Assembly: GCF_016617715.1 (NCBI RefSeq)
Contig: NZ_CP067225.1
Span: 2,672,001-2,736,000 of the forward strand
Direction of reading: 5' to 3'
Source: Paracoccus sp. MC1862
GTDB taxonomy: Bacteria > Pseudomonadota > Alphaproteobacteria > Rhodobacterales > Rhodobacteraceae
DNA length: 64,000 nt
Shown: in pieces, positions 23,232-41,558 of the stretch
Numbering within the stretch: position 1 is the first letter of the stretch
How the letters are laid out: every line of letters begins with the position of its first letter
Notes under the pieces: generated by a model
Database searches by the model: none
The model's input: the letters and a program-made list of their open reading frames with translations, nothing else
Told to the model about the DNA's origin: nothing
Program-made: the position numbers and the translations under genes

Positions 23232-24110
23232 TCAGGCACCAGCGCCCAAGAGTTGGCACAGACGATCCAACTGTTCCAGATCGTGGTATGTCACCGTCAC
23301 CCGTCCACCGTCTTGACCGGCATGGTCGATCCGGACGCGCATCTTGAGATGGGCCGAGAGATCTGCTTCCAAGGCACGGGTATCCGAATCCTTGTTGTCT
23401 TTCTCCTGCTTCGGAACAGGTGCGGGACGTTCCGCCACTTGGCGGGCGAGGGCCTCTGTCTCTCGCACGGAAAGGTTGCGGTCGATCACCTTTCGCGCCA
23501 TGGCGATGGGATCTGGCGCGGTGATAAGCGCCCGCGCATGGCCTGCGCTGATTTTTCCATCCCGCACAAAGCCTTGAACCTGATCGGGCAGATTCAGCAG
23601 CCGCAGCAGGTTGGAGATATGGCTGCGGCTCTTGTCCAAGGCTTCCGCGAGCCTTTCCTGAGTATGGCCAAACCGATCCATGAGTTGGCGGAAGGAAGCC
23701 GCCTCTTCGATCGGATTGAGGTTGGCACGCTGAATGTTTTCGATAAGGGCCACTTCCAGGACTTCCGTATCATCCAGCTCACGGACAAGAACCGGAAGTT
23801 CATGCAACTGGGCAATCTGGGCCGCACGCCACCGGCGTTCTCCGGCAACGATCTGGTAGAGATCCGGTTCACTCGGGTGAGGACGGACGATCAGAGGCTG
23901 CAGCACGCCGCGATTGCGCAGGGAGGCCGCGAGTTCAGCCAGTGCTTCGGGGTCAAACTGACGGCGTGGCTGGTCCGGGTTCGGGATGAGCTGTTCGACA
24001 GGAACATTCAGGGTGCTGCGCGACTGGGTTCCCGGCGACAGTTCGACATCGGCCATGAGCGCGGACAGGCCTCGTCCAAGGCCTCCCTTACGGGGTTTTG
24101 GATCAGCCAT
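23232..24110 (-). CDS. parB: Chromosome-partitioning protein ParB
   Basis: CTPase and parS-binding protein that loads origin-proximal DNA for segregation, 292 residues. It starts with the typical basic KPRKGGLGRGLSALM. It has the GERRWRAAQ box of the ParB/Srx N-domain, the helix-turn-helix region around LAEALDKSRSHISNLLRLL, and a C-terminal dimer domain. It overlaps parA by 8 bases. Two parS-like sites lie at 25439 and 27308. Confidence 0.96.
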   Translation of the reverse strand: MADPKPRKGGLGRGLSALMADVELSPGTQSRSTLNVPVEQLIPNPDQPRRQFDPEALAELAASLRNRGVLQPLIVRPHPSEPDLYQIVAGERRWRAAQIAQLHELPVLVRELDDTEVLEVALIENIQRANLNPIEEAASFRQLMDRFGHTQERLAEALDKSRSHISNLLRLLNLPDQVQGFVRDGKISAGHARALITAPDPIAMARKVIDRNLSVRETEALARQVAERPAPVPKQEKDNKDSDTRALEADLSAHLKMRVRIDHAGQDGGRVTVTYHDLEQLDRLCQLLGAGA

Positions 24111-24888
24111 GTGCTGCCTTTCCCTGATCCCGATTCCGGTCGATCAGTTCATTTGCCAAGGCGCGATAAGCAGCGCTGCCCTTGGAAGATGGGTCATAGT
24201 GAATCACTGGCAGAGCATGAGATGGTGACTCTGAAACCCGGACGTTCCTGGGCACCACTGTTCTGAAAACAAGCGAACCCAATGTCTTGCGGGCATCTGC
24301 CTCGACATGCTGCGACAGGTTGTTCCGTGAATCCGCCATGGTCAGAAGAACACCCTCGATCCGCAGGTGTGGATTGGCAGAGCTTCTGACTTCCCGAATT
24401 GTCAGTAGAAGTTGCGAAAGTCCTTCCAAGGCATAGAACTCAGCTTGAAGAGGCACGATCACGCTGTCCGCAGCAACCATCGCGTTAAGGGTAAGCAGGC
24501 CAAGGGCCGGGGGACAGTCGATCAGCACGGTGCCGGTCGCCTGCTGCAACGCATCGGCAAGAAGATGCGTCCGGCGCGCCCGCGAGGCAATGTCAAGTTC
24601 GGCCGATGCAAGGTCGGGCGTGGCCGGAACGATGGTCAGGTTCGACAAGCCGGTCGGATGACGTGCGTTCATCCACTCGACCTCTCCGGTCAGCAGATCG
24701 TAGCTGGTGGTCTCACGTTTGTCGGGATCAACACCCAAGCCGGTGGAGGCATTTCCTTGGGGATCAAGGTCGATGATGGTGACATCCACGCCGATTTCAG
24801 CCAGAGCAGCGCCAAGGTTGATGGCTGTGGTCGTCTTTCCGACTCCGCCCTTCTGGTTGGTGATGGCGATGATGGTGCGGTCAAACAT
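24103..24888 (-). CDS. parA: Chromosome-partitioning ATPase ParA
   Basis: Deviant-Walker ATPase that drives ParB-parS complexes, 261 residues from the ATG at 24888. KGGVGKTT occupies residues 13-20, and DLDPQGNASTGLG and DCPPALGLLTLNA follow. The frame is open to 24984, but those residues overlap rsm[13 protein letters not shown] is the standard start (MFSMFDR at 24897 is also possible). It overlaps rsmG by 8 bases and parB by 8. Confidence 0.95.
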   Translation of the reverse strand: MFDRTIIAITNQKGGVGKTTTAINLGAALAEIGVDVTIIDLDPQGNASTGLGVDPDKRETTSYDLLTGEVEWMNARHPTGLSNLTIVPATPDLASAELDIASRARRTHLLADALQQATGTVLIDCPPALGLLTLNAMVAADSVIVPLQAEFYALEGLSQLLLTIREVRSSANPHLRIEGVLLTMADSRNNLSQHVEADARKTLGSLVFRTVVPRNVRVSESPSHALPVIHYDPSSKGSAAYRALANELIDRNRDQGKAAHG

Positions 24889-25459
24889 GCTGAACATTCC
24901 AGATCTGCAGGATGGCCGCGCCGTCCTCTGTATTGCTTGGATGGACCTGCAACTCGAAGCGCCAAGAGTTTCGCGCGGGATCAAGTTCGGTTTGCCAACT
25001 GCGACCCTTCATGAGCCAAGCGGTTCCTTCTGGCGCCAGATGCCTGTCGAGATATGGCATGAGGCGGTTGAGAGGTGCAAGCGCACGCGCGCTAACGATG
25101 AGAGCCTGCGCGGGAGCTAGGTTTTCAATGCGCGCTGCCTCGGCCGTGCAATTCGAAAGCGATAACTCGCGGATAACGGTCTGCAGAAAAGCAACCTTGC
25201 GGTTATCCGAGTCCACAAGCCGGAAAGGGTTCTGAGGGCGGCAAATGGCCAATATCAGGCCCGGCAATCCCCCGCCGCTGCCGATATCCAGCCATGAGCC
25301 TTGAGTGGACGGTGCGAGATCGTTCAGTTGAAGACTGTCCTGGATGTGGCGCGTTTCAAGATCATCGACGGAAGACCGTGCCACGAGATTGATGTTTGGG
25401 TTCCATCTTCTGATCAGTGCTGCATACTGCTCCAGCTTCGCTTCACGTGAAGCATTCAT
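24881..25459 (-). CDS. rsmG: 16S rRNA (guanine527-N7)-methyltransferase RsmG
   Basis: SAM-dependent methyltransferase (GidB), 192 residues. It has the SAM loop [17 protein letters not shown] and the [12 protein letters not shown] motif. It overlaps mnmG by 4 bases and parA by 8. Its first codons (MNASREAK) coincide with a parS-like palindrome. Confidence 0.95.
25439..25454. promoter_or_regulatory. parS-like ParB site over the rsmG start
   Basis: CGCTTCACGTGAAGCA matches the common parS sequence TGTTTCACGTGAAACA at 13 of 16 bases, and its central CTTCACGTGAAG is a perfect palindrome. It encodes the codons just after the rsmG start. Position near parAB and the origin supports it, although the mismatches may weaken binding. 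Confidence 0.65.
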
Positions 25460-27324
25460 GCCGCAGTTCCCGATCGCGTACGTAGAAGGGCGATCAGAAG
25501 GCTCAGCGCTGCCGCAGTCATACCTTCAACTATAGCGGCTTGAGCGATGTTTGCGGGTCGATGACCGGCCAGTTTCATGCGCAATTCCTTGGACAATCCT
25601 GCCACTTCATCGAAGTTGAGTTCGGCGGGAATGAGGAGGCTTTCATATCGGCGAATGTCGGCCGCATCACGCTGCTGCCGCTCTGTGAACTGCACATACA
25701 TCGCTTCGTTGCAGACAAGATCTAAAGCTTCCCTGTCACCAGCGATGTCGGTCGGCAACAAAGGTACGATTTTGGAAAAATCTACGTCACTCTGGCCCAA
25801 GAGACTGAAGACCGTCCGACGGTTTCCGTCTTGCCGAACAATGATGTCACGCCTTCCGAGTTCCTGTGGTGTAAAGCTGATAGCCTGACAGGACCTTTGA
25901 ACGTTCTTGAAGCGTTTCAGCTTTTCTTGGAATCTTGTTGCACGTTCTTCCCCCACAAGACCCCATTCAATCCCTTTCGGAGTCAGACGTCGATCCGCGT
26001 TGTCGATTCGAAGGGAAAGACGGAACTCTGCCCGCGACGTGAACATCCGATAAGGTTCCGTCACGCCACGCGTTAGTAGATCGTCGATCATCACCCCGAT
26101 ATAGCTTTCCGTCCTGCTGAACACAGCAGGTGGTCTGCTTTGAGCGGAGAGTGCCGCATTGAGACCAGCTACCAACCCTTGGGCTGCCGCTTCTTCATAG
26201 CCTGTGGTTCCATTGATCTGACCGGCAAGATAAATGCCACTGACCGACTTCAACTCCAACGTCGGGTGCAAGGCCCGGGGATCGATGTAGTCGTATTCTA
26301 TCGCATAGCCTGGTTGAACAATCTCGGCGGCTTCGAGGCCCCGAATCGATCTTACATATTCCAGTTGAACTATCTCTGGCAGAGAGGTTGAAAGCCCGTT
26401 GGGATAGACCAGTTCGCTGTCATGACCTTCAGGCTCAAGAAAGATCTGGTGGCTGGTCTTTTCAGAGAACCGCACCACTTTGTCTTCCACAGACGGACAA
26501 TAGCGTGGGCCCTTGCTGTCGATCTGGCCACCATACATCGCTGATTGATGCAGATTTTCGCGAATGATCTTATGGGTTCTTTCGTTCGTGTGGGTGATCG
26601 CACATGCAACTTGAGGTGCTTCCGGTGCAACAGTCATGAAAGACATCATGACTGGATGACGGTCTCCCGGCTGCTGCTGCAGGCTGTCCCAATCTACGGA
26701 ACTGCGCAACAACCTTGGAGGTGTTCCGGTTTTCAAGCGCCCGAGTGGAAGTTCCAGTTCAAGCAAGGCTGCCGCCAAGCCTGCAGAACGATCATTCCCC
26801 CACCGGCCAGACGGTCGAGTGACATCCCCGATATGGATCACCCCATTCAAGAAGGTGCCTGCGGCCACGACCACTGTAGCGCATTTGATTTCGTCGCCTG
26901 TGGCCAGGATTATACCCTTAATCCGCATGTTCTCAATGGTAAGGGACGACACTTCGCCAATTACAAGCTCAAGCCCTAAAACTTTGGCAAGTTCTGCGGC
27001 GGCAGCTGTCCGGTACAATACGCGGTCAGCTTGGACCCGTGGCCCCTGAACCGCAGGCCCCTTGCGCCGGTTGAGAAGACGGAACTGGATCCCTGCAGCA
27101 TCTGCGACACGACCCATCAACCCATCCAGTGCATCGATTTCCCGGACAAGATGCCCTTTCCCGAGACCACCGATCGCCGGATTGCACGACATGGTCCCCA
27201 CGTCCTCGGGACGCATCGTCACAAGGCCCACTGACACGCCCAAGCGGGCCGCGGCAGCTGCAGCTTCAAGCCCCGCATGACCTGCCCCAATCACAACAAC
27301 ATCAAAATGTTTCACGTGAAGCAC
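25456..27324 (-). CDS. mnmG: tRNA uridine-5-carboxymethylaminomethyl modification enzyme MnmG
   Basis: FAD enzyme that, with MnmE, modifies U34 of several tRNAs, 622 residues. The FAD motif [20 protein letters not shown] is at the N-terminus, followed by [20 protein letters not shown] and the family motif [13 protein letters not shown]. It lies directly downstream of mnmE with adjoining coordinates. The start codon and first residues MLHVKH are encoded within a parS-like site. Confidence 0.97.
27308..27323. promoter_or_regulatory. parS site at the mnmG start
   Basis: TGTTTCACGTGAAGCA matches the common parS sequence at 15 of 16 bases. It overlaps the second and third bases of the mnmG start codon and encodes the first residues of the protein. 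About 2.4 kb from parA and 3.2 kb from the probable origin, it is the best ParB-loading candidate in the window. Confidence 0.85.
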
Positions 27325-28575
27325 CTACTTCCCTATGCAGAAGCGTGAGAAGATCTCGTCAAGATAATCATCCACTGCGATGCGACCAACAACCTCGGTC
27401 AGCCGCTGTGACGTATGCCGCACAATTTCTGCAAGCAGCTCGGGAGGCAGATCAGGCCCCATGTCAAGCGCTTCTGCTGCAGTCTCCAGACACTCCGCCT
27501 GCCGTCGCCGCGTGATGACGCCAGCCCCGGCCACGCGTTGACTCAGCCGATCCTTGACCTGTTCCAACATCTTGGGAATGCCCGTACCGGAAACAGCCGA
27601 GATCCCATTCCCTCCCAGATCGGCCTTGGTACGAAGAACCAAGTCATCACGCTGCAGAAGATCCTGGACGGGTTGTCCATCTTCAGACAGGTGTATTCTC
27701 AGGTCTGCATTACGCGCCCGATCCAGCGCCCGCTTGACTCCCAGGAATTCGACCTGATCCTGCGTCTTTCGAAGCCCCGCCGTGTCCAGGAACGTGACCG
27801 CCAACCCCCCAAGATCGGTATGAAGCTCGATCACATCGCGGGTCGTTCCGGCAACATCGCTGACCAGTGCCAATTCCCGTCTTGCAATCCGGTTCAGCAA
27901 GGATGACTTGCCCGCATTCGGAGGACCGACGATCGCCACCTCAAAACCTGTCCGTATCCGCTCAGCTGCGGGATAGCCGGCAAGTGCCGCTAGAATATCG
28001 CCACGGACACCTTTCAGCAGATCAAACACCTCTGCTGGAACGTCTTCAGGGACTTCTTCATCGGCGAAATCCACTGAAACCTCGATCAACGCTCCTGCTC
28101 GGACAAGACGTTCGCGCAGGCTCTCGGTCCATCGGACAAGCTCGCCCGACATGACCCGCATCGCCTGCTGACGCTGAGCCTCGCTTTCAGCGGACAGAAG
28201 ATCGGACAGGGCTTCGACCTCGCTCAAGGCGATCGCGCCGCTCATCAGCCCTCGGCGGGTGAACTCTCCGGGTTCCGCCATCCGGGCGCCATGCCGCCGC
28301 AATGCCGCTTCAAGCCGACGCACCACGACGGGGGCGCCATGAATCTGGAACTCGACAACCTCATCGCCAGTGAAGCTCGATCCCTGGTCGAAACGAATGA
28401 CCAGGCCCCGGTCGATCAACTCGCCATCCCGCAGAGATCTCAACTCGGCCCTGCGAGCCTCGGGCAGCGGTCCGGCAAGGGCCTCGCCAATCAGACGCGC
28501 CTCGGGTCCGCTCAGGCGGACAACAGAGATTCCGCCTCGGCCAGGAGGCGTCGCTTCGGCGTAGATCGTGGACAT
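27325..28575 (-). CDS. mnmE: tRNA modification GTPase MnmE
   Basis: GTPase partner of MnmG, 416 residues, slightly shorter than the usual 430-450. An N-terminal tetrahydrofolate-binding domain begins MSTIYAEATPPGRGGISVVRLSG. The G domain has GPPNAGKSSLLN, the DVAGTTRD switch and DTAG. The essential C-terminal CIGK ends the protein. It sits 7 bases after the rho stop. Confidence 0.96.
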   Translation of the reverse strand: MSTIYAEATPPGRGGISVVRLSGPEARLIGEALAGPLPEARRAELRSLRDGELIDRGLVIRFDQGSSFTGDEVVEFQIHGAPVVVRRLEAALRRHGARMAEPGEFTRRGLMSGAIALSEVEALSDLLSAESEAQRQQAMRVMSGELVRWTESLRERLVRAGALIEVSVDFADEEVPEDVPAEVFDLLKGVRGDILAALAGYPAAERIRTGFEVAIVGPPNAGKSSLLNRIARRELALVSDVAGTTRDVIELHTDLGGLAVTFLDTAGLRKTQDQVEFLGVKRALDRARNADLRIHLSEDGQPVQDLLQRDDLVLRTKADLGGNGISAVSGTGIPKMLEQVKDRLSQRVAGAGVITRRRQAECLETAAEALDMGPDLPPELLAEIVRHTSQRLTEVVGRIAVDDYLDEIFSRFCIGK

Positions 28576-28582
28576 GCCATTC

Positions 28583-29854
28583 TCAGGCGTTCATCGATTC
28601 GAAGAAATCGGCGTTGGTCTTGGTCTGCTTCAGCTTCGAGATCAGGAACTCGATCGCATCCGTTGTGCCCATCGGGTTCAGGATGCGCCGCAGCAGATAG
28701 GTCTTCTGCAGATCCTTCTGATCGACAAGCAGCTCTTCCTTGCGGGTTCCCGACTTGAGGATGTCCATGGCAGGGAATACCCGCTTGTCGGCAACCTTCC
28801 GGTCCAAGACGATCTCGCTGTTGCCGGTGCCCTTGAATTCCTCGAAGATCACTTCGTCCATGCGGCTGCCGGTATCGATCAGCGCTGTTGCGATAATCGT
28901 TAGTGAACCACCTTCCTCGATGTTCCGCGCGGCGCCGAAGAACCTCTTGGGCCGCTGCAACGCATTTGCATCGACACCTCCCGTCAGCACCTTGCCCGAG
29001 GAGGGCACGACCGTGTTGAACGCCCGCCCCAAGCGCGTGATCGAATCCAGCAGAATCACCACATCCCGCTTGTGCTCGACCAGCCGCTTTGCCTTTTCGA
29101 TCACCATCTCGCTGACAGCAACGTGCCGCGTTGCCGGCTCGTCGAAGGTCGATGAAACCACCTCACCCTTCACAGAGCGCTGCATGTCCGTCACCTCCTC
29201 GGGCCGCTCATCGATCAGCAGCACGATGAGATAGCATTCAGGATGATTTTTCTCGATCGAATGGGCAATATTCTGCAGAAGCACCGTCTTGCCGGTACGA
29301 GGAGGGGCAACGATCAGCGACCGCTGTCCTTTCCCGATCGGCGCCACCAGGTCGATGATCCGGGCCGAGCGGTCCTTGGCCGTCGGGTCCTCCAACTCCA
29401 TCCGCAGCCGTTCGTTCGGATAGAGCGGGGTCAGGTTGTCGAAGGCAACCTTGTGCCGCGCCTTCTCGGGATTCTCGAAGTTGATCTTTTCGGCCTTGGT
29501 CAGCGCGAAATATCGCTCGTTTTCACCCGGAGCGCGGATCACCCCCTCGACGGTGTCGCCCGTTCGCAGACTGTGCAGGCGGATCATGTCGGGGCTGACA
29601 TAGATGTCGTCGGGACCGGGCAGGTAGTTCGCCTCGGGCGAGCGCAGGAAGCCAAAGCCGTCCTGCACGACCTCCAGCACGCCATCTCCGCCGATCTCGA
29701 AGCCTTCCTCAGCATGCTCCTTCAGCAGCGAGAACATCATCTCGCCCTTCCGCATGGTGGAAGCGTTCTCGATCTCCCATTCCTCGGCGATGGACAGCAG
29801 GTCGGCGGGGCTCTTGGCCTTCAGGTCGGCGAGGTTGAGGCGTTCTTCGGTCAT
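28583..29854 (-). CDS. rho: Transcription termination factor Rho
   Basis: Hexameric RNA helicase, 423 residues from [16 protein letters not shown]. It has an N-terminal RNA-binding domain ([22 protein letters not shown]), Walker A APPRTGKT, Walker [17 protein letters not shown] and the Q-loop near [17 protein letters not shown]. The frame is open to 29905, but the ATG pair at 29857/29854 matches related proteins. Confidence 0.96.
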
Positions 29855-29974
29855 CATGTCACCATGCGCCGGATCGGCCCGGGCCGGGCGCTGCGGCATG
29901 CTCATGTCGGATGGATTCGCCCCGGACGGGACGCAACATGGCAGATAGGCCGAAACGGCCCCTGAGTCAAACCT

Positions 29975-30424
29975 TCAGAACTTCACGATCACCGACAGCA
30001 CGATGATCGCCATCAGCAATGTCGGCACCTCGTTCATCAGCCGATAACGCCGGCCGGTCGATCCTGCGCCGCGTGACAGTTTCTTCCGCTCGATCATCAG
30101 CCAGTGATGGAAGACGGTCATGCCGACCACGGCGACGGCCTTGGTCCATGGCCAGATCATCGACCAGTCCACGATCCCCGGCGTGAACACCAGCGCCAGC
30201 CCCGCGAGCCATGTCGCGATGGACGCCGGTCCCATGATGAACCGCAGCAGCTTGTATTCCATGATCTGCAGGCTGTCGCCCGGCTCTCCGGCCATGGTTC
30301 CGCGCTCGGCATGATAAACGAACAGCCTTGGCAGGTAGAACAGCCCCGCCATCCAGGAAATCACCGCCATGACGTGAAAGGCCTTGATCCACGGGTAAGC
30401 AGTGCCAAGCCAATCGGTGATCAT
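29975..30424 (-). CDS. hemJ: Protoporphyrinogen IX oxidase HemJ
   Basis: Small inner-membrane haem-synthesis enzyme of 149 residues with four hydrophobic segments. The conserved IKAFHVMAVISWMAGLFYLPRL near the N-terminus carries the functional His, and RYRLMNEVPTLLM near the C-terminus is typical. It is the last gene before the origin gap and runs away from it. Confidence 0.94.
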   Translation of the reverse strand: MITDWLGTAYPWIKAFHVMAVISWMAGLFYLPRLFVYHAERGTMAGEPGDSLQIMEYKLLRFIMGPASIATWLAGLALVFTPGIVDWSMIWPWTKAVAVVGMTVFHHWLMIERKKLSRGAGSTGRRYRLMNEVPTLLMAIIVLSVIVKF

Positions 30425-30576
30425 GCGCCATCTCCTTCGCCATCTTATCCTTAAGAAAGGAAAGATAAGAAAGGTAGATGTGGTGGTAGGGCCTGTGGAC
30501 TTCGGAAGGATCGTCTTTTACCGGATTCAATCCACCAAAACTGCCTGTGGGAAAATCCTGTGGAGGCACATCTGTC

Positions 30577-30620
30577 GTTCTAAAGATAATCAAATATTTT
30601 CATGATATTAGACTCTATGT
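30577..30620. other. AT-rich unwinding element of the origin
   Basis: This stretch is much richer in A and T than the flanking genes (for example AATCAAATATTTTCATGATA at 30588-30607) and directly precedes the first perfect DnaA box. Confidence 0.7.
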
Positions 30621-30626
30621 GCATCC

Positions 30627-30635
30627 TGTGGATAA
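30627..30635 (-). promoter_or_regulatory. DnaA box, perfect
   Basis: TGTGGATAA is the exact complement of the TTATCCACA consensus. It lies 6 bases after the AT-rich element. Confidence 0.9.
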
Positions 30636-30683
30636 CTCTGTTAGTCCACAAGGTCGGGATGACTCTGGAACAACTTGTCTTCC

Positions 30684-30692
30684 TGTGGATGA
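30684..30692 (-). promoter_or_regulatory. DnaA box, 8 of 9
   Basis: TGTGGATGA differs at one base from the reverse-complement consensus and has the same orientation as the box at 30627. Confidence 0.8.
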
Positions 30693-30723
30693 CTCCCTTT
30701 CGTTCACCTTCCGTCTCATGGCC

Positions 30724-30732
30724 TGATCCACA
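30724..30732 (+). promoter_or_regulatory. DnaA box, 8 of 9
   Basis: TGATCCACA differs from TTATCCACA at one base and points opposite to the two boxes on its left. Confidence 0.78.
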
Positions 30733-30797
30733 GTCCTCGCGGGCGCAGCAGTTGTCCCATGCCACCGCCCTCCTCCGGCCCTGCCTTTGCACCGCAG

Positions 30798-30806
30798 TTA
30801 TCCACA
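30798..30806 (+). promoter_or_regulatory. DnaA box, perfect
   Basis: TTATCCACA matches the consensus exactly. It lies 66 bp before the aroE start. Confidence 0.88.
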
Positions 30807-30872
30807 GCCGTGGCGCTTCCCCTTGAATGGCGCGCGGGCTAGACAGATGTGGCAGGACGGCGAGGATGCGGA

Positions 30873-31748
30873 ATGAACCACAGCGCGGCGCCGATGATGG
30901 CGGATCGGCAGGACCACAGGGAAACGCAGGTGCCGCTGGCTGGGGTGATCGGCTGGCCGGTGGCCCATTCCCGTTCGCCTGTGCTGCACGGACACTGGCT
31001 GCAGCAGCACGGGCTGCGCGGTCATTATGTGCCGCTTGCCGTCAGGCCCGAACATCTTGCGCAGGTGCTGCAGGGCCTGCCATGCATGGGCTTCGTCGGC
31101 GCAAACGTCACCATCCCGCACAAGGAAGCGGTGCTGGCGCTGGCTGATGTCGTCACCGACCGCGCGGCGCTGATCGGGGCGGCCAACACGCTGATCTTCC
31201 GTCCCGATGGCCGTATCCACGCTGACAACACTGACGGCTGCGGCTTCATCGCCAACCTGACCCAGCAGGCGCCCCACTGGCAGCCCTCGTCCGGTCCCGC
31301 CGCCATCATCGGCGCGGGGGGCGCTGCGCGGGCCGTGGTTGCGGCGCTTCTGGAACAGGGCGTGCCGGAACTGCGGATCGCCAACCGGTCCCGCGAGCGT
31401 GCCGAGCGTATCCGCGAGGATTTCGGCGCGCGCGTCACCGTCCATGACTGGTCGCATGCGGGCGGGATGCTGGAAGGCGCCAGAACCGTCGTGAACACCA
31501 CCTCCATGGGCATGGAGGGCCAGCCGCCTCTGCAGGTTACCCTGGACAAGCTGTCGCCCGCCGCCCTCGTGACGGACCTTGTCTATACGCCGCTCGACAC
31601 GGCGTTCCTGCGCGCCGCCCGCGCGCGCGGCTGCGTCACGGTGGACGGCCTCGGCATGCTGCTGCACCAGGCCGCACCGGGGTTCGAGCGCTGGTTCGGC
31701 GTCAGGCCCCAGGTCGATGACGCCCTGCGCGCCACGGTGCTGGGATGA
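30873..31748 (+). CDS. aroE: Shikimate dehydrogenase
   Basis: NADPH-dependent reduction of 3-dehydroshikimate, 291 residues from MNHSAAP. Motifs are GWPVAHSRSPVLHGHW (shikimate site), FVGANVTIPHKEAVL with the catalytic Lys, NTDGCGF, and the cofactor loop IIGAGGAARAVV. GAGG lies 7 bases before the ATG at 30873; an upstream in-frame start at 30849 lacks support. It overlaps coaE by ATGA and is the first gene right of the origin. Confidence 0.95.
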   Translation: MNHSAAPMMADRQDHRETQVPLAGVIGWPVAHSRSPVLHGHWLQQHGLRGHYVPLAVRPEHLAQVLQGLPCMGFVGANVTIPHKEAVLALADVVTDRAALIGAANTLIFRPDGRIHADNTDGCGFIANLTQQAPHWQPSSGPAAIIGAGGAARAVVAALLEQGVPELRIANRSRERAERIREDFGARVTVHDWSHAGGMLEGARTVVNTTSMGMEGQPPLQVTLDKLSPAALVTDLVYTPLDTAFLRAARARGCVTVDGLGMLLHQAAPGFERWFGVRPQVDDALRATVLG

Positions 31749-32347
31749 GCTTCCGGCTCGGCCTCACCGGCGGCATCGGCATGGGCAAGACCACCACCGC
31801 CGCGATGTTCGCAAGCCGCGGCGTCCCTGTCTGGGATGCCGACACCGCCGTCCACCGGCTCTATGCGGCGGGCGCCGCCGCGGTTGAGCCCGTTGCGGCC
31901 GTTTTTCCCTCGGCGCTCGGTCCTCAGGGCATCGACCGCACCGTGCTGAAGCGTCTGCTGGCCGAAGATCCCTCGCGACTGGCCCGGCTCGAAGCCATCG
32001 TCCACCCCCTTGTCGCTGCCGACCGGCAGGCCTTCATCGGGGCGAATGCCGCTGCGCCGGTCGTGCTGCTCGACATTCCGCTGCTGTTCGAAACGGGGGC
32101 AGAGGCGCAGATGGACGGCGTCGCCGTTGTCTCTGCCCGGGCCGAGATCCAGCGCGCCCGCGTCCTGTCCCGTCCCGGCATGGATGAAGCGACGCTTGAC
32201 CTGATCCTGTCGCGCCAGATGGCCGACGCCGAACGCCGCGCCCGCGCGACCTGGATCATCCCCACCGCGACATTGGCCGAGGCGGAAGCCGCCGTGGACG
32301 CCATCCTTGCCGAAATCGCCGCCCGAAAGACCAGGACCCATGCGTGA
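31745..32347 (+). CDS. coaE: Dephospho-CoA kinase
   Basis: Last step of CoA synthesis, 200 residues. Its P-loop region GLTGGIGMGKTTTAAMF is at the N-terminus, followed by VWDADTAVHRLY and VLLDIPLLFETGAE. It overlaps aroE by 4 bases and dnaQ by 8, so the three genes form an operon. Confidence 0.95.
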   Translation: MSFRLGLTGGIGMGKTTTAAMFASRGVPVWDADTAVHRLYAAGAAAVEPVAAVFPSALGPQGIDRTVLKRLLAEDPSRLARLEAIVHPLVAADRQAFIGANAAAPVVLLDIPLLFETGAEAQMDGVAVVSARAEIQRARVLSRPGMDEATLDLILSRQMADAERRARATWIIPTATLAEAEAAVDAILAEIAARKTRTHA

Positions 32348-33047
32348 GATCGTTCTCGACACTGAAACCACCGGCTTCGACCCCGACACCGGCGACCGCA
32401 TCGTCGAGATCGGCGCCGTCGAGCTGATGAACCACCTGCCTACGGGCCGGCATTTCCACGTCTACATCAATCCTGAACGCGACATGCCGGCCGATGCCTT
32501 CGCGGTCCACGGGCTTTCGACCGAGTTCCTGTCCGACAAGCCGCGCTTTGGCGAAGTCGCCGCCGGTTTCATCGCCTTCATCGGGGACGCCCGGCTGGTC
32601 ATCCACAATGCCGCCTTTGACATGAAGTTCCTGAACGCGGAGCTGCGCCGCGCCGGCCAGCCCACGATGCCGATGTCCCGGGCACTCGACACCGTGGCGA
32701 TGGCACGGGGGAAATTTCCGGGCGCGCCGGTGTCGCTGGACGCGCTTTGCCGGCGCTGGGGAATCGACAATTCCAACCGCACCCTTCACGGTGCGCTTCT
32801 GGACAGCCAGCTTCTGGCCGAGGTTTATCTGGAACTGATCGGCGGCCGCCAGCCCGACCTGGTGCTGGTGCCGCAAGCCGATACCCGAACGGCCGACGGC
32901 GCCGCCTCGGGACCTGTCCGCCCGCGCGCGCCCCGTCCGGCGCCGCTGCCCCCCCGCATCACCGCCGCCGAGCGACAGGCCCATGCCGCCTTTGTCGAAC
33001 GGATCGGCGCCAAGGCCCTGTGGTCGCGCCATGCGCCGGCGGGCTGA
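32340..33047 (+). CDS. dnaQ: DNA polymerase III epsilon subunit (proofreading 3'-5' exonuclease)
   Basis: Proofreading subunit, 235 residues from MREIVLDTETTG. The exonuclease motifs are DTETTG (Exo I), HNAAFDMKFLNAEL (Exo II) and HGALLDSQLLAEVY (Exo III). A Pro/Arg-rich linker and a short helix for the alpha subunit end the protein. The ATG lies inside the 3' end of coaE. Confidence 0.95.
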   Translation: MREIVLDTETTGFDPDTGDRIVEIGAVELMNHLPTGRHFHVYINPERDMPADAFAVHGLSTEFLSDKPRFGEVAAGFIAFIGDARLVIHNAAFDMKFLNAELRRAGQPTMPMSRALDTVAMARGKFPGAPVSLDALCRRWGIDNSNRTLHGALLDSQLLAEVYLELIGGRQPDLVLVPQADTRTADGAASGPVRPRAPRPAPLPPRITAAERQAHAAFVERIGAKALWSRHAPAG

Positions 33048-33974: not shown

Positions 33975-35750
33975 TCAGTGCCGCGCTCCCTCGCGCGCGG
34001 CCGAGGTCAGCACCACTCTGCGCTCCTCCGGCTCACGCAGCGAATATGGCGCGTCCGGGCTGAAGCGCATGTGCAGCGTGAACACGTCATCCGTTGCCGT
34101 CACCTCGGTTTCGGTGTCGAGCTGCATCGCGAATGCTTCGATCAACTGGCTGCCAAGACCGGTGCCTTCCAGGTTGTTCAGGGGCTGGCCCAGCGAATTC
34201 TCGATCGTCAGTTCTGCCTTGCCTTCGTCATCCACCCGCAACTGCACCCGAACCCAGGCCCTTTCCTGTCCTTCCGCCTTTCCGGCGTATTTGAGCGCGT
34301 TGGTAAAGGCTTCGGTGGTCAGCAGGGTCAGCGGCACCGCCTGGTCCGGCAGCAGCACCAGCGGGTCAAGCCGGGTGTCGATCTGGATCGACTGGTCGTT
34401 GACGACAGTCGCGGTGGACATCTGCCCGATGATGTCGCGGATCAGGCGATCTGCCTCGACCGAGTCCAGATGCTCGGCCTGGTAGAGGTTCTTGTAGATC
34501 GTGGCCAGCGACGCCACCCGGTCCTGCACCGACCGCAGCACCCGCTTGGCGTCGGTGTCGTCGATCATCCGGCCCTGCATGTTGATGATCGAGGCGATCA
34601 GTTGCAGGTTGTTCTTGACCCGGTGATGGACCTCTTTCAGCAGCACCGTCTTTTCGGCGACGACTTCCTCCATCGCCGCCTCGTCGCGGATCAGGATGCG
34701 GGCCATGTTGTGGAATGTCTCGCTGACGTCGCGGATCTCGCCCGGCGCGCCTTCCAGGATCGGGGGCGGGGCGTCGCGGTTGCCCAGGGCAAAGCGGCGC
34801 ATCTGGCTTCGCAATTCGCGCACATGCCGCAGCACCAGACGATAGACGGCGAAATAGGCCACGGCGAGAGATACGGCCCAGAGGGCGACGGGAAACAGCA
34901 CGGCGGCAAGCCGCGACACCGTCAACCCGGCAATGCCGGTCAGCTGCGGGCTCCAGCTGCCCAGTGCATAGACCAGGTCGGGCACCACCGCGACAACCGA
35001 AAACACCCGTTGCTCGCCCGAGTTCGAGATGCCGCTGAAGGTCGTGTCCGTCAGCGGGATCAGCGAATCCAGCGTCATGCCTTCCGGCAGGATCGCGGTG
35101 GGATCGTTGTCGCTTTCAAAGTCGCCCACCAGCGACTGGCCGACGCTGTTGAAGGTCAGGATGCGGGCGCCGTCCGACCAGTAGGCCGTCGCATGGGTCG
35201 AACGCAGCAGGTCGTGCGACAAGGACACCGCGACATAGCCCAGCAGGTCCTGTTCGCGGTAAAGCGGCTGCGACACGATCACCACCGATTGCCCCGAGGC
35301 CCGGCCTTTCTCCGCGGCGGTGATCAGCGTTCCCGGCTCACGCATGAACTGCAGGAAATGCGGCAAGTCGCGCATATCCACGACCCTGTCCGCCGAGGAA
35401 CAGGCGTTGCGGCCCGTGATGTCGGTGAACCCGGCATAAACAAAGGTCGCGCTGCGCTGGACGAAATCGCGCATCATCTCGGAACAGGCGGCCGGATCGT
35501 CCAGCAGCGTCAGCACCGAGCTGCCAAGCGCATCGGCCGTTCCGATGGCGCCCTGCAGCAGCGCCCGTTCGCCTGCGGCGGCGGCGGCGGTGCGTCCCTG
35601 GATGGCGATCTCGGACGACCGCTCGGCTTCGCGCGACAGATGCAGCGTCTGCAGGATCGAGATCATCCCGATGGGAAGGATCGCGATGCTCAGCAGCATC
35701 CCCAGCCGGAACCCCAGTGTCCGGGTGAAGGACGCGCCCTTTCCCAGCAC
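33975..35750 (-). CDS. HisKA_2-type sensor histidine kinase of the general stress response
   Basis: Membrane kinase of 591 residues that probably phosphorylates PhyR. A first membrane segment near residues 13-33 and a second near 285-305 enclose a periplasmic sensor domain. A HAMP-like region follows, then the H-box LLKEVHHRVKNNLQLIASIINMQ of the HisKA_2 family and a degenerate HATPase domain (LTTEAFTNALKYA, GTGLGSQLIEAFA). The start is GTG at 35750, 12 bases after the ecfG stop, so it is cotranscribed with nepR-ecfG. The signal sensed is unknown. Confidence 0.92.
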   Translation of the reverse strand: MLGKGASFTRTLGFRLGMLLSIAILPIGMISILQTLHLSREAERSSEIAIQGRTAAAAAGERALLQGAIGTADALGSSVLTLLDDPAACSEMMRDFVQRSATFVYAGFTDITGRNACSSADRVVDMRDLPHFLQFMREPGTLITAAEKGRASGQSVVIVSQPLYREQDLLGYVAVSLSHDLLRSTHATAYWSDGARILTFNSVGQSLVGDFESDNDPTAILPEGMTLDSLIPLTDTTFSGISNSGEQRVFSVVAVVPDLVYALGSWSPQLTGIAGLTVSRLAAVLFPVALWAVSLAVAYFAVYRLVLRHVRELRSQMRRFALGNRDAPPPILEGAPGEIRDVSETFHNMARILIRDEAAMEEVVAEKTVLLKEVHHRVKNNLQLIASIINMQGRMIDDTDAKRVLRSVQDRVASLATIYKNLYQAEHLDSVEADRLIRDIIGQMSTATVVNDQSIQIDTRLDPLVLLPDQAVPLTLLTTEAFTNALKYAGKAEGQERAWVRVQLRVDDEGKAELTIENSLGQPLNNLEGTGLGSQLIEAFAMQLDTETEVTATDDVFTLHMRFSPDAPYSLREPEERRVVLTSAAREGARH

Positions 35751-35762
35751 GGTCCTGCGCCT

Positions 35763-36347
35763 TCAGCGGGAAACGGGGTGGTTCACCGCCATCACGGCCA
35801 GGGTCGCGCGGTCCGTCATGTCAAGTTCCTCGCCCTCGGCCATCTGCAGCAATTCGGCCAGCCGGCGGCGGCCGCGGTTGGCACGCGACTTGACCGTGCC
35901 CACGGCCACGCCGGTCATGTTGGCGGCTTCCTCGTAGGAAAAGCCCGATCCGCCGACCAGGATCAGCGCCTCGCGCTGCTCGTCGGGAAGCTGCGCGAAG
36001 GCCGCCTTGAAGTCGTTCATCGCCAGCCGCCCGTCATGTTCGGGGCGGGTCGCCTGCCGGGCGGCATGGATGCCGTCGGTGTCGCTGACCTCGCGCCGGG
36101 TCTTGCGGCGGGCGGAATAGAAGGTGTTGCGCAGGATCGTGAACAGCCAGGCGCGCAGGTTGGTGCCGGCCTGGAACTTCTCGATATTGGTCCAAGCCTT
36201 GACGATGGTGTCCTGCACGAGATCGTCGGCGGACGCGCTTTCGCGGGTCAGCGACAGGGCGAATGCCCTCAGCGCGGGCAGGTGATCCACCAGCTCGCTG
36301 CGGGGGTCGGGACCGGATTGGGCCTTGCTGTCGGCCGCTCTGGACAT
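35763..36347 (-). CDS. ecfG: EcfG-type general stress sigma factor
   Basis: Extracytoplasmic-function sigma factor of the EcfG group, 194 residues from MSRAADSK. Region 2 has SADDLVQDTIVKAWTNIEKFQAGTNLRAWLFTILRN and region 4 has FSYEEAANMTGVAVGTVKSRANRGRRRLAELL. The ATG at 36347 lies 8 bases after AGGAG, better than the GTG at 36356 or the ATG at 36353. It is held by NepR and freed by phosphorylated PhyR. Confidence 0.94.
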   Translation of the reverse strand: MSRAADSKAQSGPDPRSELVDHLPALRAFALSLTRESASADDLVQDTIVKAWTNIEKFQAGTNLRAWLFTILRNTFYSARRKTRREVSDTDGIHAARQATRPEHDGRLAMNDFKAAFAQLPDEQREALILVGGSGFSYEEAANMTGVAVGTVKSRANRGRRRLAELLQMAEGEELDMTDRATLAVMAVNHPVSR

Positions 36348-36352
36348 CCGCA

Positions 36353-36499
36353 TCACTCCTGCTCGCGCAGGCGCTCGAGAAGGATCAGAAAGCGGTCGGG
36401 GACCTCCTGCTGGGATTCCTGCTCATAGACGCGCCGCAGATTTTCATCGATCTGCTTCTCAAGGGCGGCGCGTTTTCGTTCTTCCCGCCTCGTATTCAT
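36353..36499 (-). CDS. nepR: NepR anti-sigma factor (48 residues)
   Basis: Short gene easily missed by length cutoffs. It encodes a basic N-terminus (MNTRREERKRAALEKQ) and the NepR core IDENLRRVYEQE followed by VPDRFLILLERLREQE, the two helices that clamp EcfG or PhyR. The stop touches the ecfG start region. An EcfG-type promoter lies about 40-65 bases upstream. I see no strong ribosome site, so the exact start could move, but the family assignment is clear. Confidence 0.92.
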   Translation of the reverse strand: MNTRREERKRAALEKQIDENLRRVYEQESQQEVPDRFLILLERLREQE

Positions 36500-38246: not shown

Positions 38247-38630
38247 ATGATGGCGGATCTGATGGTTCTCAGCATGCAGGAAGCGGTGCAGGTGGATGCG
38301 CGCCGCCTGGCCGAGATCGTGGACGAGCTGGGCGAGACGGCGGCCCACAATGTCATCTGCGTGGCGCTGGAACAGTTGGCGCAAGGGCTGTCGGACACCC
38401 GCCACGCGGCGCTGTCCGGCGACATGGCCGGGCTTGCCGAACGGTCCGGGATGCTGGCGCGGCTGGCCTGGCAGGTCGGGCTGACCTCGCTGGCCGGGGT
38501 CGCCGCCGACGTGGCGGCCTGCGCGGAACGGCGCGACGGAATCGGGCTTTCCGCCACGCTGGCGCGGCTGATGCGGATCGGCAACCGCTCGCTGACCGAG
38601 ATCTGGGACGAGGGGCGCGACCTCAATTGA
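38247..38630 (+). CDS. Small helical protein, function unknown
   Basis: The 127-residue product (MMADLMVLSMQEAVQ) is predicted mostly helical and rich in Ala and Leu, with DARRLAEIVDELGETAAHNVICVALEQLAQGLSDT-like amphipathic segments. It recalls a four-helix bundle, but no phosphotransfer His motif is clear. An AAGGCGGG site precedes the ATG. It converges on and overlaps the next gene by 8 bases. I cannot name it. Confidence 0.65.
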   Translation: MMADLMVLSMQEAVQVDARRLAEIVDELGETAAHNVICVALEQLAQGLSDTRHAALSGDMAGLAERSGMLARLAWQVGLTSLAGVAADVAACAERRDGIGLSATLARLMRIGNRSLTEIWDEGRDLN

Positions 38631-39237
38631 GCCGCAGGCGCGGATCGGTGGCGGCGCGGGCGCGGACCCATGCGGCCTCGGCCGCGAAATCATGGGGCAC
38701 CTGCGCCGCGCTGCGCGACCCCGACAGCGACTTCGAGGCGAAGAAGTCGAAGCCGTAAAGGCCGAGGCTTTTCAGCGGCGCCCGCAGCAGCAGGTCGATC
38801 GCCATGATCCCGGTGCTGGGCGGCGCCCCGAGCCGGCGGGCAAGCGCATGGAAATCCGCCAGCGGATGCAGGTAAAAGCCGGGGCTGCGGGCGCTCGCCC
38901 AGTCCAGCCGCTTGCGCTTGGGCGACATCCACAGGATGCGCGCAGGGTCCAGCCGCCTGCGGTCCGACTCGGGCAACCGCACGGCCAGCGCCAGCCAGTC
39001 GGTGCGGGTTCCGTGGCTTTCGGCCGCGGTCATCGGTGCCCGGTTGATCCTGACCACCAGCCCCGCCGCGTCGATGGCGGCGCCATGGCCCTGCGCCGAA
39101 AGGGCACGGGCATTGCCGACCAGCGCGACCTGCTTGCCCCCGGCCGTTGCCAGCAGTCCGGTCTGCGGCACCGACAGCAGGGCGAGGGTGGCCTCGTCCC
39201 GCAGCGTCCGGGCAAGATAGAAGCGCAAGGGGATCAT
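38623..39237 (-). CDS. Glycosyltransferase family 29 (sialyltransferase)-like protein
   Basis: The 204-residue protein has the pattern VALVGNARALSAQGHGAAIDAAGLVVRINRAP and a later PSTGIMAIDLLLRAPLKSLGLYGFDFF, which recall the L and S motifs of GT29-like enzymes. Activity on sialic acid is not certain. The ATG at 39237 starts MIPLRFYLARTL; upstream residues in this frame look non-coding. It lies beside GT4 and GT2 enzymes, so a role in an outer polysaccharide is likely. Confidence 0.72.
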   Translation of the reverse strand: MIPLRFYLARTLRDEATLALLSVPQTGLLATAGGKQVALVGNARALSAQGHGAAIDAAGLVVRINRAPMTAAESHGTRTDWLALAVRLPESDRRRLDPARILWMSPKRKRLDWASARSPGFYLHPLADFHALARRLGAPPSTGIMAIDLLLRAPLKSLGLYGFDFFASKSLSGSRSAAQVPHDFAAEAAWVRARAATDPRLRLN

Positions 39238-39325
39238 CGCGCGCCCCCGGATCGGCCCTGCGGCAGCGGCAATGCGGCAATCGCCGCATCCCCCGGCCTC
39301 CGGGCAGGATGGAGCTGCGGCCGGT

Positions 39326-40375
39326 TCATCGGGGCGCTTCCAGCAGGCGGCGATACACGGCGACAATGGCGCGGGCCTCGCCCTCAATGGCATGGTTGGC
39401 CTCGACATGGGCACGGGCGGCGCGGCCCGCGGCCTCACGGCCCGCATCGTCGGACAGCCAGCGCTCCAGCGCGGCGGCCAATGCCTCGGCGTCCTCGCGC
39501 GGAACCAGCGTGCCGGTCTCGCCGTCCCGGATCAGCGTCTCATAGGCGCCGACACGGGCCGCGATCACCGGCACGCCGCTTGCCATCGCCTCCAGCGGGG
39601 TCAGGCCGAAGCCTTCCCACCGAGCGGGGGCGGCAAAGAGGTCGAGCGTCCGGTAAAGCCGCACCACGTCGTCCCACGGGATCTCGCCCAGAAAGCGGAT
39701 GCGGTCGGCGATGCCGGCCGCCTGCGCCCTGGCCATCAGGTCATCGACAAAGGTGCGGTTGTCGGGGGTGATGCGGCCGCTGAAGACAAGCTGCGCCCTC
39801 GGGTGGCGGGGAAAGACCCGCAGCGCGGCCTCGATCAGCAGATCGACGCCCTTCTGCGCCCTGACCCGGCCGAAGCAGCCGATCAGCAGCGCCTTGGGGT
39901 CAAGCCCCATCTCGCGCCGCAGGGCAGCTTGGTCGGGAGCGGGATGGAAGACCCCGGTATCGACCCCGTGCAGGATCACCTCTGCCGGGCGTTCCAGATA
40001 GGAGGCCGCCTGCGGCGAGGTGGCGATCAGCGCATCCTGTTGCCGGATCAGCCAGCGGGTGAATCCGGTGTGCCGCCGCTGCGCCGCGCTGGTGAACAGC
40101 AGGCAGTAGCGGCGGCGCAGCAGGTGGCGCAGGACCAGCCCCAGCGCCATTTCCGTGTTCCGCCGCGCGTGCCAGACCCGCCAGCGGTTCCGGGGCAGGG
40201 TGGCGGCGCGCGCAAGCGAGACATGCGGCAGTCCGGGCGGCAATCCGGGGCCGGTCGCCACGATCCCGATCATGCGCGCCTGCACCGGGATCAGCCGCAC
40301 CACGGTCGCCGTGACTCCCGACAGGCGCTGCTTGAGGTTCGGGGCCACCACCTCGATGTCGCGCGGCTCAGTCAT
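39326..40375 (-). CDS. Glycosyltransferase family 4
   Basis: The 349-residue GT-B enzyme starts MTEPRDIEVVAPNLK at 40375, inside the last bases of the MFS gene. It has LIGCFGRVRAQKGVDLLIEA and the acceptor motif APARWEGFGLTPLEAMASGVPVIA with the catalytic Glu pair. It probably adds a sugar in surface polysaccharide or LPS core synthesis; donor and acceptor are unknown. Confidence 0.92.
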   Translation of the reverse strand: MTEPRDIEVVAPNLKQRLSGVTATVVRLIPVQARMIGIVATGPGLPPGLPHVSLARAATLPRNRWRVWHARRNTEMALGLVLRHLLRRRYCLLFTSAAQRRHTGFTRWLIRQQDALIATSPQAASYLERPAEVILHGVDTGVFHPAPDQAALRREMGLDPKALLIGCFGRVRAQKGVDLLIEAALRVFPRHPRAQLVFSGRITPDNRTFVDDLMARAQAAGIADRIRFLGEIPWDDVVRLYRTLDLFAAPARWEGFGLTPLEAMASGVPVIAARVGAYETLIRDGETGTLVPREDAEALAAALERWLSDDAGREAAGRAARAHVEANHAIEGEARAIVAVYRRLLEAPR

Positions 40376-41558
40376 CGGCGGCCTCGGGCGCCAGGCGGTA
40401 AAGCAGGGTCCCGACGACCAGCGGGGCCAGGAAGAACAGGAACAGCATCGCATAGGCCCCCGGCGCCGCAAAGGTCCCCGAGGCCGACTGGTGCAGCGGG
40501 CGGGAGGCGAATTGCATGATCCCCACGCCCCCGATCGAGACCATGTTGAGGAAGGTGACGCCCCGGCCCAGCAGATGCACCGGCAGGAACCCCCGCGCAT
40601 GGGCCATGATCAGCGCGTAGTTGGTCCCTGTCAGCCCGACCAGCCCCAGCAGCGCCACCGCCAGAAGCAGGCTTTCCCCCGGCAGCAGCACCAGCCCCGC
40701 CAGCGCCGCGATGGACAGCGCGTGTCCCGCCATGACCGCGCCGCGCAACGAGCGGCAGAGCCGCACGAAGGGTCCCGCCATGAGGTTGCCGATCACCATG
40801 GCGATCCCCATGACCAGCGTGGCCCGCCCGATCATCGTGTCATCGGCGCCGAAGACGTCGCGCAGGTAGGGCGCGGCCCACAAGCCCCGGATCGCCGCCG
40901 ACGAGGCGTAGCTGACCGCGAACAGCGGCAGCATCAGCCACAGCACCCGCAGCCCCAGGATCTGCAGGACGCTGCCCTTCGGCGCACCGTCCGCGTGATG
41001 CGGGTCGCGCACCACCAACCATTGCAGCAGCGCCACCGCCAGCGTCACCGCAGCCAGCAGCCACAGCGATTCGCGCCAGCCGATGGCGTGGATCAGCGTG
41101 ACAAGCGGTGCCGCGCCGAGGATGTTGCCGGCCGAGCCGAGGCCCACGATCATCCCCGTCAGGCCCGCAAAGGCCGCGCGGGGATATTCATGGGCGATGA
41201 TGTAATAGGCCGCCATCAGCGTCGGGGCGCAGCCCATCCCGATCAGCCCCATCGCCAGATGCAGGTGCCAGACCTCGCCGGCCAGGGCGAAGGCCGCGGC
41301 GCCACCGCCGCCCCCCAGCGCCAGAAAGGCGGCCGAGGTGCGGCGCGGGCCCAGGTGGTCCAGCGCCCAGCCGACCGGCATCTGCATCAGCGCGAACCCC
41401 AGGAACCACATCCCCGAGGACAGCGCGAGATCGCCGGGGCTTGCCCCCAGTTCCGCCTGCAGGGTCGAGCTGAGCACCGCAAGGAAGGCGCGGTAGAACT
41501 GGCTCAGCGTATAGCCGAGCGTCAGCGCGATCAGGCCGGCGTTCAGGATCAGGCGCAT
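40368..41558 (-). CDS. Major facilitator superfamily transporter
   Basis: The 396-residue protein has about 12 membrane segments. The loop MPVGWALDHLGPRRTSAAFLAL is the MFS motif A. It lies between glycosyltransferase genes and overlaps the GT4 start by 8 bases. The substrate is not known; a sugar or small organic compound is possible. Confidence 0.88.
   Translation of the reverse strand: MRLILNAGLIALTLGYTLSQFYRAFLAVLSSTLQAELGASPGDLALSSGMWFLGFALMQMPVGWALDHLGPRRTSAAFLALGGGGGAAAFALAGEVWHLHLAMGLIGMGCAPTLMAAYYIIAHEYPRAAFAGLTGMIVGLGSAGNILGAAPLVTLIHAIGWRESLWLLAAVTLAVALLQWLVVRDPHHADGAPKGSVLQILGLRVLWLMLPLFAVSYASSAAIRGLWAAPYLRDVFGADDTMIGRATLVMGIAMVIGNLMAGPFVRLCRSLRGAVMAGHALSIAALAGLVLLPGESLLLAVALLGLVGLTGTNYALIMAHARGFLPVHLLGRGVTFLNMVSIGGVGIMQFASRPLHQSASGTFAAPGAYAMLFLFFLAPLVVGTLLYRLAPEAADD

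Follow-up and report, generated by a model that had tools for sequence, protein, structure and literature searches.

The 448-bp gene-free gap between the divergent genes hemJ and aroE (positions 30425–30872) is very probably, with a likelihood that we put at about 95%, the oriC of the main chromosome of Paracoccus sp. MC1862, to judge from its sequence features. The window, i.e., the whole stretch of DNA analyzed, covers 64 kb (C1:2672001–2736000); the genome has 3.63 Mb in seven contigs, and contig C1 (3,307,010 bp) is assumed to be a circle. The original prediction of a probable oriC at this place is supported by a reversal in the orientation of the octamer GGGCAGGG around the gap, by the sole cluster of DnaA boxes in the sampled part of C1, by a layout conserved among relatives, and by boxes that remain linked to hemJ. 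The anatomy of the gap, its conservation and the switch of strand polarity are observed directly. With this assignment, the gap would set the probable origin, the two arms and the likely terminus of this Paracoccus chromosome. The locus adds an origin of a well-known type; general knowledge of origins is unchanged.

Anatomy of the Gap

Two perfect DnaA boxes (TTATCCACA) lie in the gap, one at 30627–30635 (minus strand), adjoining an AT-rich stretch, and the other at 30798–30806 (plus strand), which is the best conserved of the set. Two further boxes have a single mismatch: TCATCCACA at 30684–30692 (minus strand) and TGATCCACA at 30724–30732 (plus strand), the latter with the letters of the Caulobacter G-box. 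A weaker DnaA-like box with two mismatches, TAGTCCACA, is found at 30642–30650 (plus strand). The four boxes within one mismatch span 180 bp. The claim of two perfect and two near-perfect boxes in one gap is confirmed. In 2,000 mononucleotide shuffles of the 448-bp gap, boxes that match TTATCCACA with at most one mismatch average 0.07 and never number more than 2, so that no shuffle reaches four. The core TCCACA/TGTGGA occurs seven times in 30425–30881, against 0.22 expected from shuffles; beyond the four boxes, it is found at 30494, 30559 and 30645. The whole window holds nine sites within one mismatch of TTATNCACA, against 8.57 expected, and four of the nine are in the gap. Since the window total is at the chance level, it is the clustering of the boxes, and not their number, that is unusual. 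In the sampled 1.261 Mb of C1, clusters of at least three boxes were found in the hemJ–aroE gap only. Tandem DnaA-trio runs were searched for on the plus strand of the gap, and none was found there.

The AT-rich stretch that had been claimed beside the boxes is indeed there, as the 50-mer of lowest GC in all 64 kb (30568–30617; 26% GC). It is a probable DNA unwinding element and stops 9 bp short of the first perfect box (30627), within a gap of 52.7% GC as against 66.6% for the window. The lone TGTGGA cores at 30494 and 30559 flank the AT-rich stretch on the side away from the box cluster.

The gene calls agree with the description of gene blocks running away from the gap. Leftward, all on the minus strand, are hemJ (29975–30424; PF03653 above the cut-off, TIGR00701 with 134 bits, slightly below its cut-off of 138.05), rho (28583–29905; TIGR00767), mnmE (27325–28575; NF003661), mnmG (25456–27324; TIGR00136), rsmG (24881–25459; TIGR00138), parA (24103–24984) and parB (23232–24110; TIGR00180 above the cut-off). 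The displayed matches of parA are to ParA/MinD-type ATPases and all fall under their cut-offs; its probable identity is taken also from the adjoining parB. Rightward, on the plus strand, are aroE (30873–31748; NF001312; ATG at 30873, with an in-frame GTG upstream at 30849), coaE (31745–32347; TIGR00152) and dnaQ (32307–33047; NF004316). The locus thus has the gene order of a Rhodobacteraceae-type oriC (parAB-rsmG-mnmG-mnmE-rho-hem gene / aroE-coaE-dnaQ). Among named relatives, those nearest by AroE belong to Paracoccus (a Paracoccus MAG with 93% and P. chinensis with 82%).

The partition genes parA and parB sit 5.4–7.2 kb to the left of the gap. A parS-like site with one mismatch, TGTTTCACGTGAAGCA (27308–27323, plus strand), lies 3 kb from the gap, and no other site in the genome comes this close (one mismatch) to TGTTNCACGTGNAACA; a weak parS-like palindrome with three mismatches, CGCTTCACGTGAAGCA, is found at 25439–25454 (plus strand). 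The parAB genes and parS-like sites that were said to be nearby are therefore within 8 kb. The lack of an adjoining dnaA is likewise true (dnaA is near the start of the contig, at C1:1365–1571, about 0.6 Mb from the gap if C1 is circular), yet it is ordinary for this class of origin. The gap is bordered by hemJ and not by hemE, which is at C1:1856348.

By analogy with the known class of oriC, DnaA binding, melting and bidirectional firing may be expected at the gap. DnaA, encoded elsewhere, would bind the strong and weak boxes in 30627–30806 as well as the flanking TGTGGA cores, and the bound DnaA would melt the adjoining AT-rich stretch (approximately 30568–30617). Two forks would depart in opposite directions toward a terminus near 0.93 Mb, and the new origins would then be segregated by ParAB together with the parS-like site, which is 3 kb off.

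Strand Polarity of the Chromosome

We examined strand polarity in spaced stretches of C1 together with the window (1.261 Mb, or 38% of C1). Polarised motifs were ranked in 28 training stretches without the candidate region, with the arms assigned as indicated by the skew. First among the strand-polarised 8-mers of these stretches is GGGCAGGG (112 leading, 16 lagging), a form of KOPS, the E. coli motif that guides FtsK (letters GGGNAGGG). The 8-bp KOPS point from the origin to the terminus (PMC2680272, in excerpt). The orientation of GGGCAGGG reverses within 2.6918–2.7122 Mb, an interval that includes the gap (2.7026 Mb); any origin in 2.675–2.715 Mb gives a fit at most two sites off the best. 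With the origin at 2.70265 Mb and the terminus at 0.93145 Mb, 234 of the 278 sites fit, and the replication arms are 1.54 and 1.77 Mb long.

A second flip of GGGCAGGG is seen at approximately 0.913–0.941 Mb, and a dif-like site is inside this interval (0.9314 Mb). The dif-like pattern with two mismatches has one match in the genome versus three for the reversed control. As its letters are weak compared with the control, the case for this candidate site rests on its position. A stricter dif form, derived from the site's own match, is found exactly in 2 of 37 genomes (its own and G013), with no reversed-control matches. In G013 (approximately 3.0 Mb), the strict match occurs once, at 2.776 Mb, about half a turn away from hemJ at 1.224 Mb.

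GC skew had been proposed as a check of the origin, and a skew minimum at another place as a refutation. Raw GC skew in 42 sampled stretches disagrees with the GGGCAGGG flip: it gives its best origin at 2.28–2.30 Mb (t 5.8; terminus at 0.95–1.01 Mb), roughly 0.4 Mb off, an outcome that in part goes against the prediction by its own criterion. No GC-skew minimum was found at the gap in the sampled stretches; such a minimum is a supporting, not a defining, feature of an oriC. The raw GC skew support for the gap as the origin is t 2.6 in the same 42 stretches.

Could the origin be near 2.28–2.30 Mb, with the gap serving just as a DnaA-titrating or DnaA-regulated site? Besides the raw skew split, this reading can draw on pooled motif polarity, which is mixed over about 2.2–2.9 Mb. 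The pooled twelve most polarised 7-mers or 8-mers have no clean flip at 2.70 Mb, and their sum stays close to zero or is mixed from roughly 2.2–2.5 up to 2.9 Mb; the polarity of GGGCAGGG itself is mixed near 2.30, 2.50–2.53 and 2.64 Mb. However, an origin at 2.29 Mb fits only 200 of the 278 GGGCAGGG sites, as against 234 for the gap, and at 2.33–2.47 Mb nearly all sampled GGGCAGGG sites have the left-arm orientation, with one exception (2.3460). The stretches sampled around 2.28–2.30 Mb, a region partly covered, contain no box cluster. The raw skew difference is just 0.026, and nowhere does the GC skew of third positions split convincingly (best t 1.65). We weigh raw skew lower because of this small difference, the missing third-position GC split and the left-arm GGGCAGGG sites at 2.33–2.47 Mb, and also because the best splits in third-position TA skew are closer to the gap (2.48–2.56 Mb, t up to 3.4, with t 2.45 at the candidate). 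Raw and fourfold-site GC and AT skew in the sampled stretches are both weak and not decisive. We judge the octamer to be better resolved than raw GC skew, and consider an origin near 2.28–2.30 Mb very unlikely. The comparison points to an error of about 0.4 Mb in this genome if the origin were placed by raw GC skew only.

We also note that C1 from about 2.28 to 2.70 Mb, including window positions 1–30600, has GC skew mostly of the right-arm sign and GGGCAGGG mostly in the left-arm orientation.

Conservation among Relatives

The same-genus set consists of 30 loci (L010–L039), the best of those from 54 matching genomes out of 61 searched. The order rho-hemJ-gap-aroE is present in 24 of these 30 loci, the Paracoccus sp. 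MC1862 locus included. In a wider set of named loci, hemJ-gap-aroE is found in 63 of 80; the layout is conserved in Paracoccus and other Rhodobacteraceae, and the same gene block is seen in Rhodobacter, Cereibacter, Tabrizicola and further loci compared. The gap counts exclude the 17 loci without an adjacent hemJ; two of these loci have only 954 bp (L095) and approximately 2.3 kb (L124) before aroE. The gaps were bounded by the hemJ match and the aroE match and may include a few coding bases.

If boxes with at most one mismatch are counted, every one of the 63 gaps has two or more, and 52 have three or more. The gaps are either short (374–537 bp, n = 33) or long (963–1101 bp, n = 30). Paracoccus is named in the titles of 32 of the 33 short ones, the remaining one (L115) being given as Alphaproteobacteria only, and the long ones belong by title to other Rhodobacteraceae or unplaced bacteria. 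A perfect box is present in 26/33 short gaps and 10/30 long gaps. We aligned the boxes in 34 gaps (that of the window plus the 33 short ones, with the 30 long ones excluded). The box at 30798–30806 has at most one mismatch in 21 of the 34 and at most two in 30; the corresponding numbers are 13 and 21 for 30627–30635, and 15 and 26 for the weaker box at 30642–30650. With at most two mismatches, the box at 30684–30692 is found in 23 of the 34 aligned gaps and the one at 30724–30732 in only 12.

Relatives in which the locus is rearranged offer a natural way to ask which of the two flanks goes with the origin. Six same-genus relatives (among the best 30 of 54) have aroE away from hemJ. In all six, four or five boxes are upstream of hemJ and none is upstream of aroE. 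In the wider set, 16 of the 17 loci without an adjacent hemJ have no boxes within approximately 1 kb upstream of aroE. A search for hemJ that covered 17 chosen genomes of 36 same-genus relatives found at least three boxes upstream of hemJ in 15 and two in the other 2. Since the boxes remain near hemJ even where aroE has moved, the cluster belongs to a hemJ-side origin and not to an aroE promoter. It might be argued from the position of the boxes between divergent genes that they serve as promoter elements under DnaA control, for hemJ or for aroE, and are no origin at all. The moved copies of aroE, boxless in 6/6 same-genus and 16/17 wider-set cases, speak against a role at aroE; a role at hemJ is compatible with them, but a promoter function at either gene leaves the polarity flip unexplained, and we regard this explanation as extremely unlikely. 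Equally improbable is an origin at dnaA, as in many bacteria: the contig does begin at dnaA, a common convention for such records, but this position fits only 182 of the 278 polar GGGCAGGG sites, the box cluster, parAB and the parS-like site are all at the hemJ–aroE gap instead, and in those relatives that have both genes on one contig (seven of the eight examined), a distance of at least 56 kb separates dnaA from hemJ (in contig coordinates, not round the circle).

Returning to hemJ-linked origins, two relatives can be described individually. In G011, where the hemJ-side cluster is at 212 kb and aroE at 374 kb, the former fits 54 of 65 GGGCAGGG sites and the latter 49; the best flip (57 of 65) is at 358–360 kb, between the two. 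In G007, where the data are sparse, a clear flip at hemJ was not seen, nor was a three-box cluster. A further three-box cluster, with two perfect boxes, is found in G011 away from hemJ (C1, approximately 121 kb; L203).

The Right Edge of the Probable Origin

The Rhodobacteraceae oriC is stated to adjoin maf as a family-conserved feature (PMC4793288, in excerpt). In our data, an origin-side maf is present in 30/30 long gaps and 0/33 short gaps. It is also found in 1 of the 17 wider-set loci without an adjacent hemJ (L095), and in none of the 30 same-genus aroE loci (best 30 of 54) or the 17 hemJ loci. Between the oriC of the window and aroE, maf is absent from the 448-bp gap. Its absence on the origin side is a local departure of the Paracoccus-type loci examined.

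The sole maf of the genome is at C1:15197–15733 (L199). It adjoins a gene which we take to be infA, recognised by eye from its translation. We considered, and rejected, a move of maf to a place next to dnaA; that maf adjoins infA. Where tblastn could align the two (21 of the 30 long gaps), the infA-side maf has only 28–34% identity with the origin-side maf.

The genes aroE-coaE-dnaQ are not beside hemJ or the origin in a number of loci (Paracoccus: L067, L071, L074, L076, L078, L080–L083, L088, L091, L092, L094, L108 and L117; also L015–L019 and L028). It is possible, and we offer this tentatively, that the right edge of the Paracoccus origin is a recurrent break point, where the origin-side maf is missing from all Paracoccus-type loci examined and the whole of aroE-coaE-dnaQ has departed in a sizeable part of them, with the hemJ side remaining linked to the DnaA boxes. 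Were this true, selection to remain linked would act on a single flank of an alphaproteobacterial origin, and the origin could be rebuilt beside new genes.

Comparison with Known Origins

An oriC distant from dnaA and beside parAB-rho-hemJ is a known alphaproteobacterial arrangement. In E. coli, the AT-rich unwinding element of oriC is beside the TGTGGATAA box, and element and box have the same relative orientation in the Paracoccus gap. The E. coli origin has other gene neighbors and is under GATC/SeqA control, whereas only two GATC sites are found in the Paracoccus gap. The Cori of Caulobacter crescentus, like the Paracoccus gap, is far from dnaA and adjoins a haem gene. This gene is hemE in Caulobacter (PMC6650430, in excerpt), and hemJ replaces it here. 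The two origins share the TGATCCACA box, whose letters are those of the Caulobacter G-box (PMC4285127, in excerpt). They differ in that the Paracoccus gap has no full CtrA site (TTAAN7TTAA) and no match within three mismatches to the Caulobacter IHF site. Two IHF forms in all were searched for in the gap, and neither was found.

Excerpts from work on other relatives give a similar picture. In Hyphomonas neptunium, the marker-frequency maximum is near hemE, with parAB approximately 7 kb off and two parS sites (PMC6650430); that origin was mapped experimentally, whereas the Paracoccus one is deduced from sequence alone. In the Rhodobacteraceae, oriC was located in 101 genomes through box clusters, GC measures and proximity to parAB, and eight strains failed (PMC6699656). 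The Paracoccus gap agrees with the oriC of this family in its box cluster and its AT-rich gap near parAB (PMC6699656, PMC4793288) and differs in lacking the reported neighbor maf (PMC4793288). Of 179 alphaproteobacterial genomes, almost all have parAB near the origin, with some exceptions that include Rhodobacterales (PMC8116508). Among the papers listed in our literature searches, none has a title on a Paracoccus origin, which does not prove that none is in print.

Other Features

A perfect DnaA box is also found within the first 110 bases of each of two small contigs (C4:100–108 and C5:70–78); these boxes are perhaps plasmid origins placed at the start of the record. To the right of dnaQ in the window, a histidine kinase of the HisKA_2/HWE type (33975–35750, minus strand) adjoins an ECF-like protein with sigma-70 regions 2/4 and a PhyR_sigma2 match (35763–36356, minus strand). 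By their domain matches, the two look like a general stress response pair near the origin. Further on, the ORF at 38623–39447 (minus strand) matches glycosyltransferase family 29 (sialyltransferase) weakly, with 27.7 bits versus a cut-off of 23 bits, and is beside a group 1 glycosyltransferase (39326–40600, minus strand).
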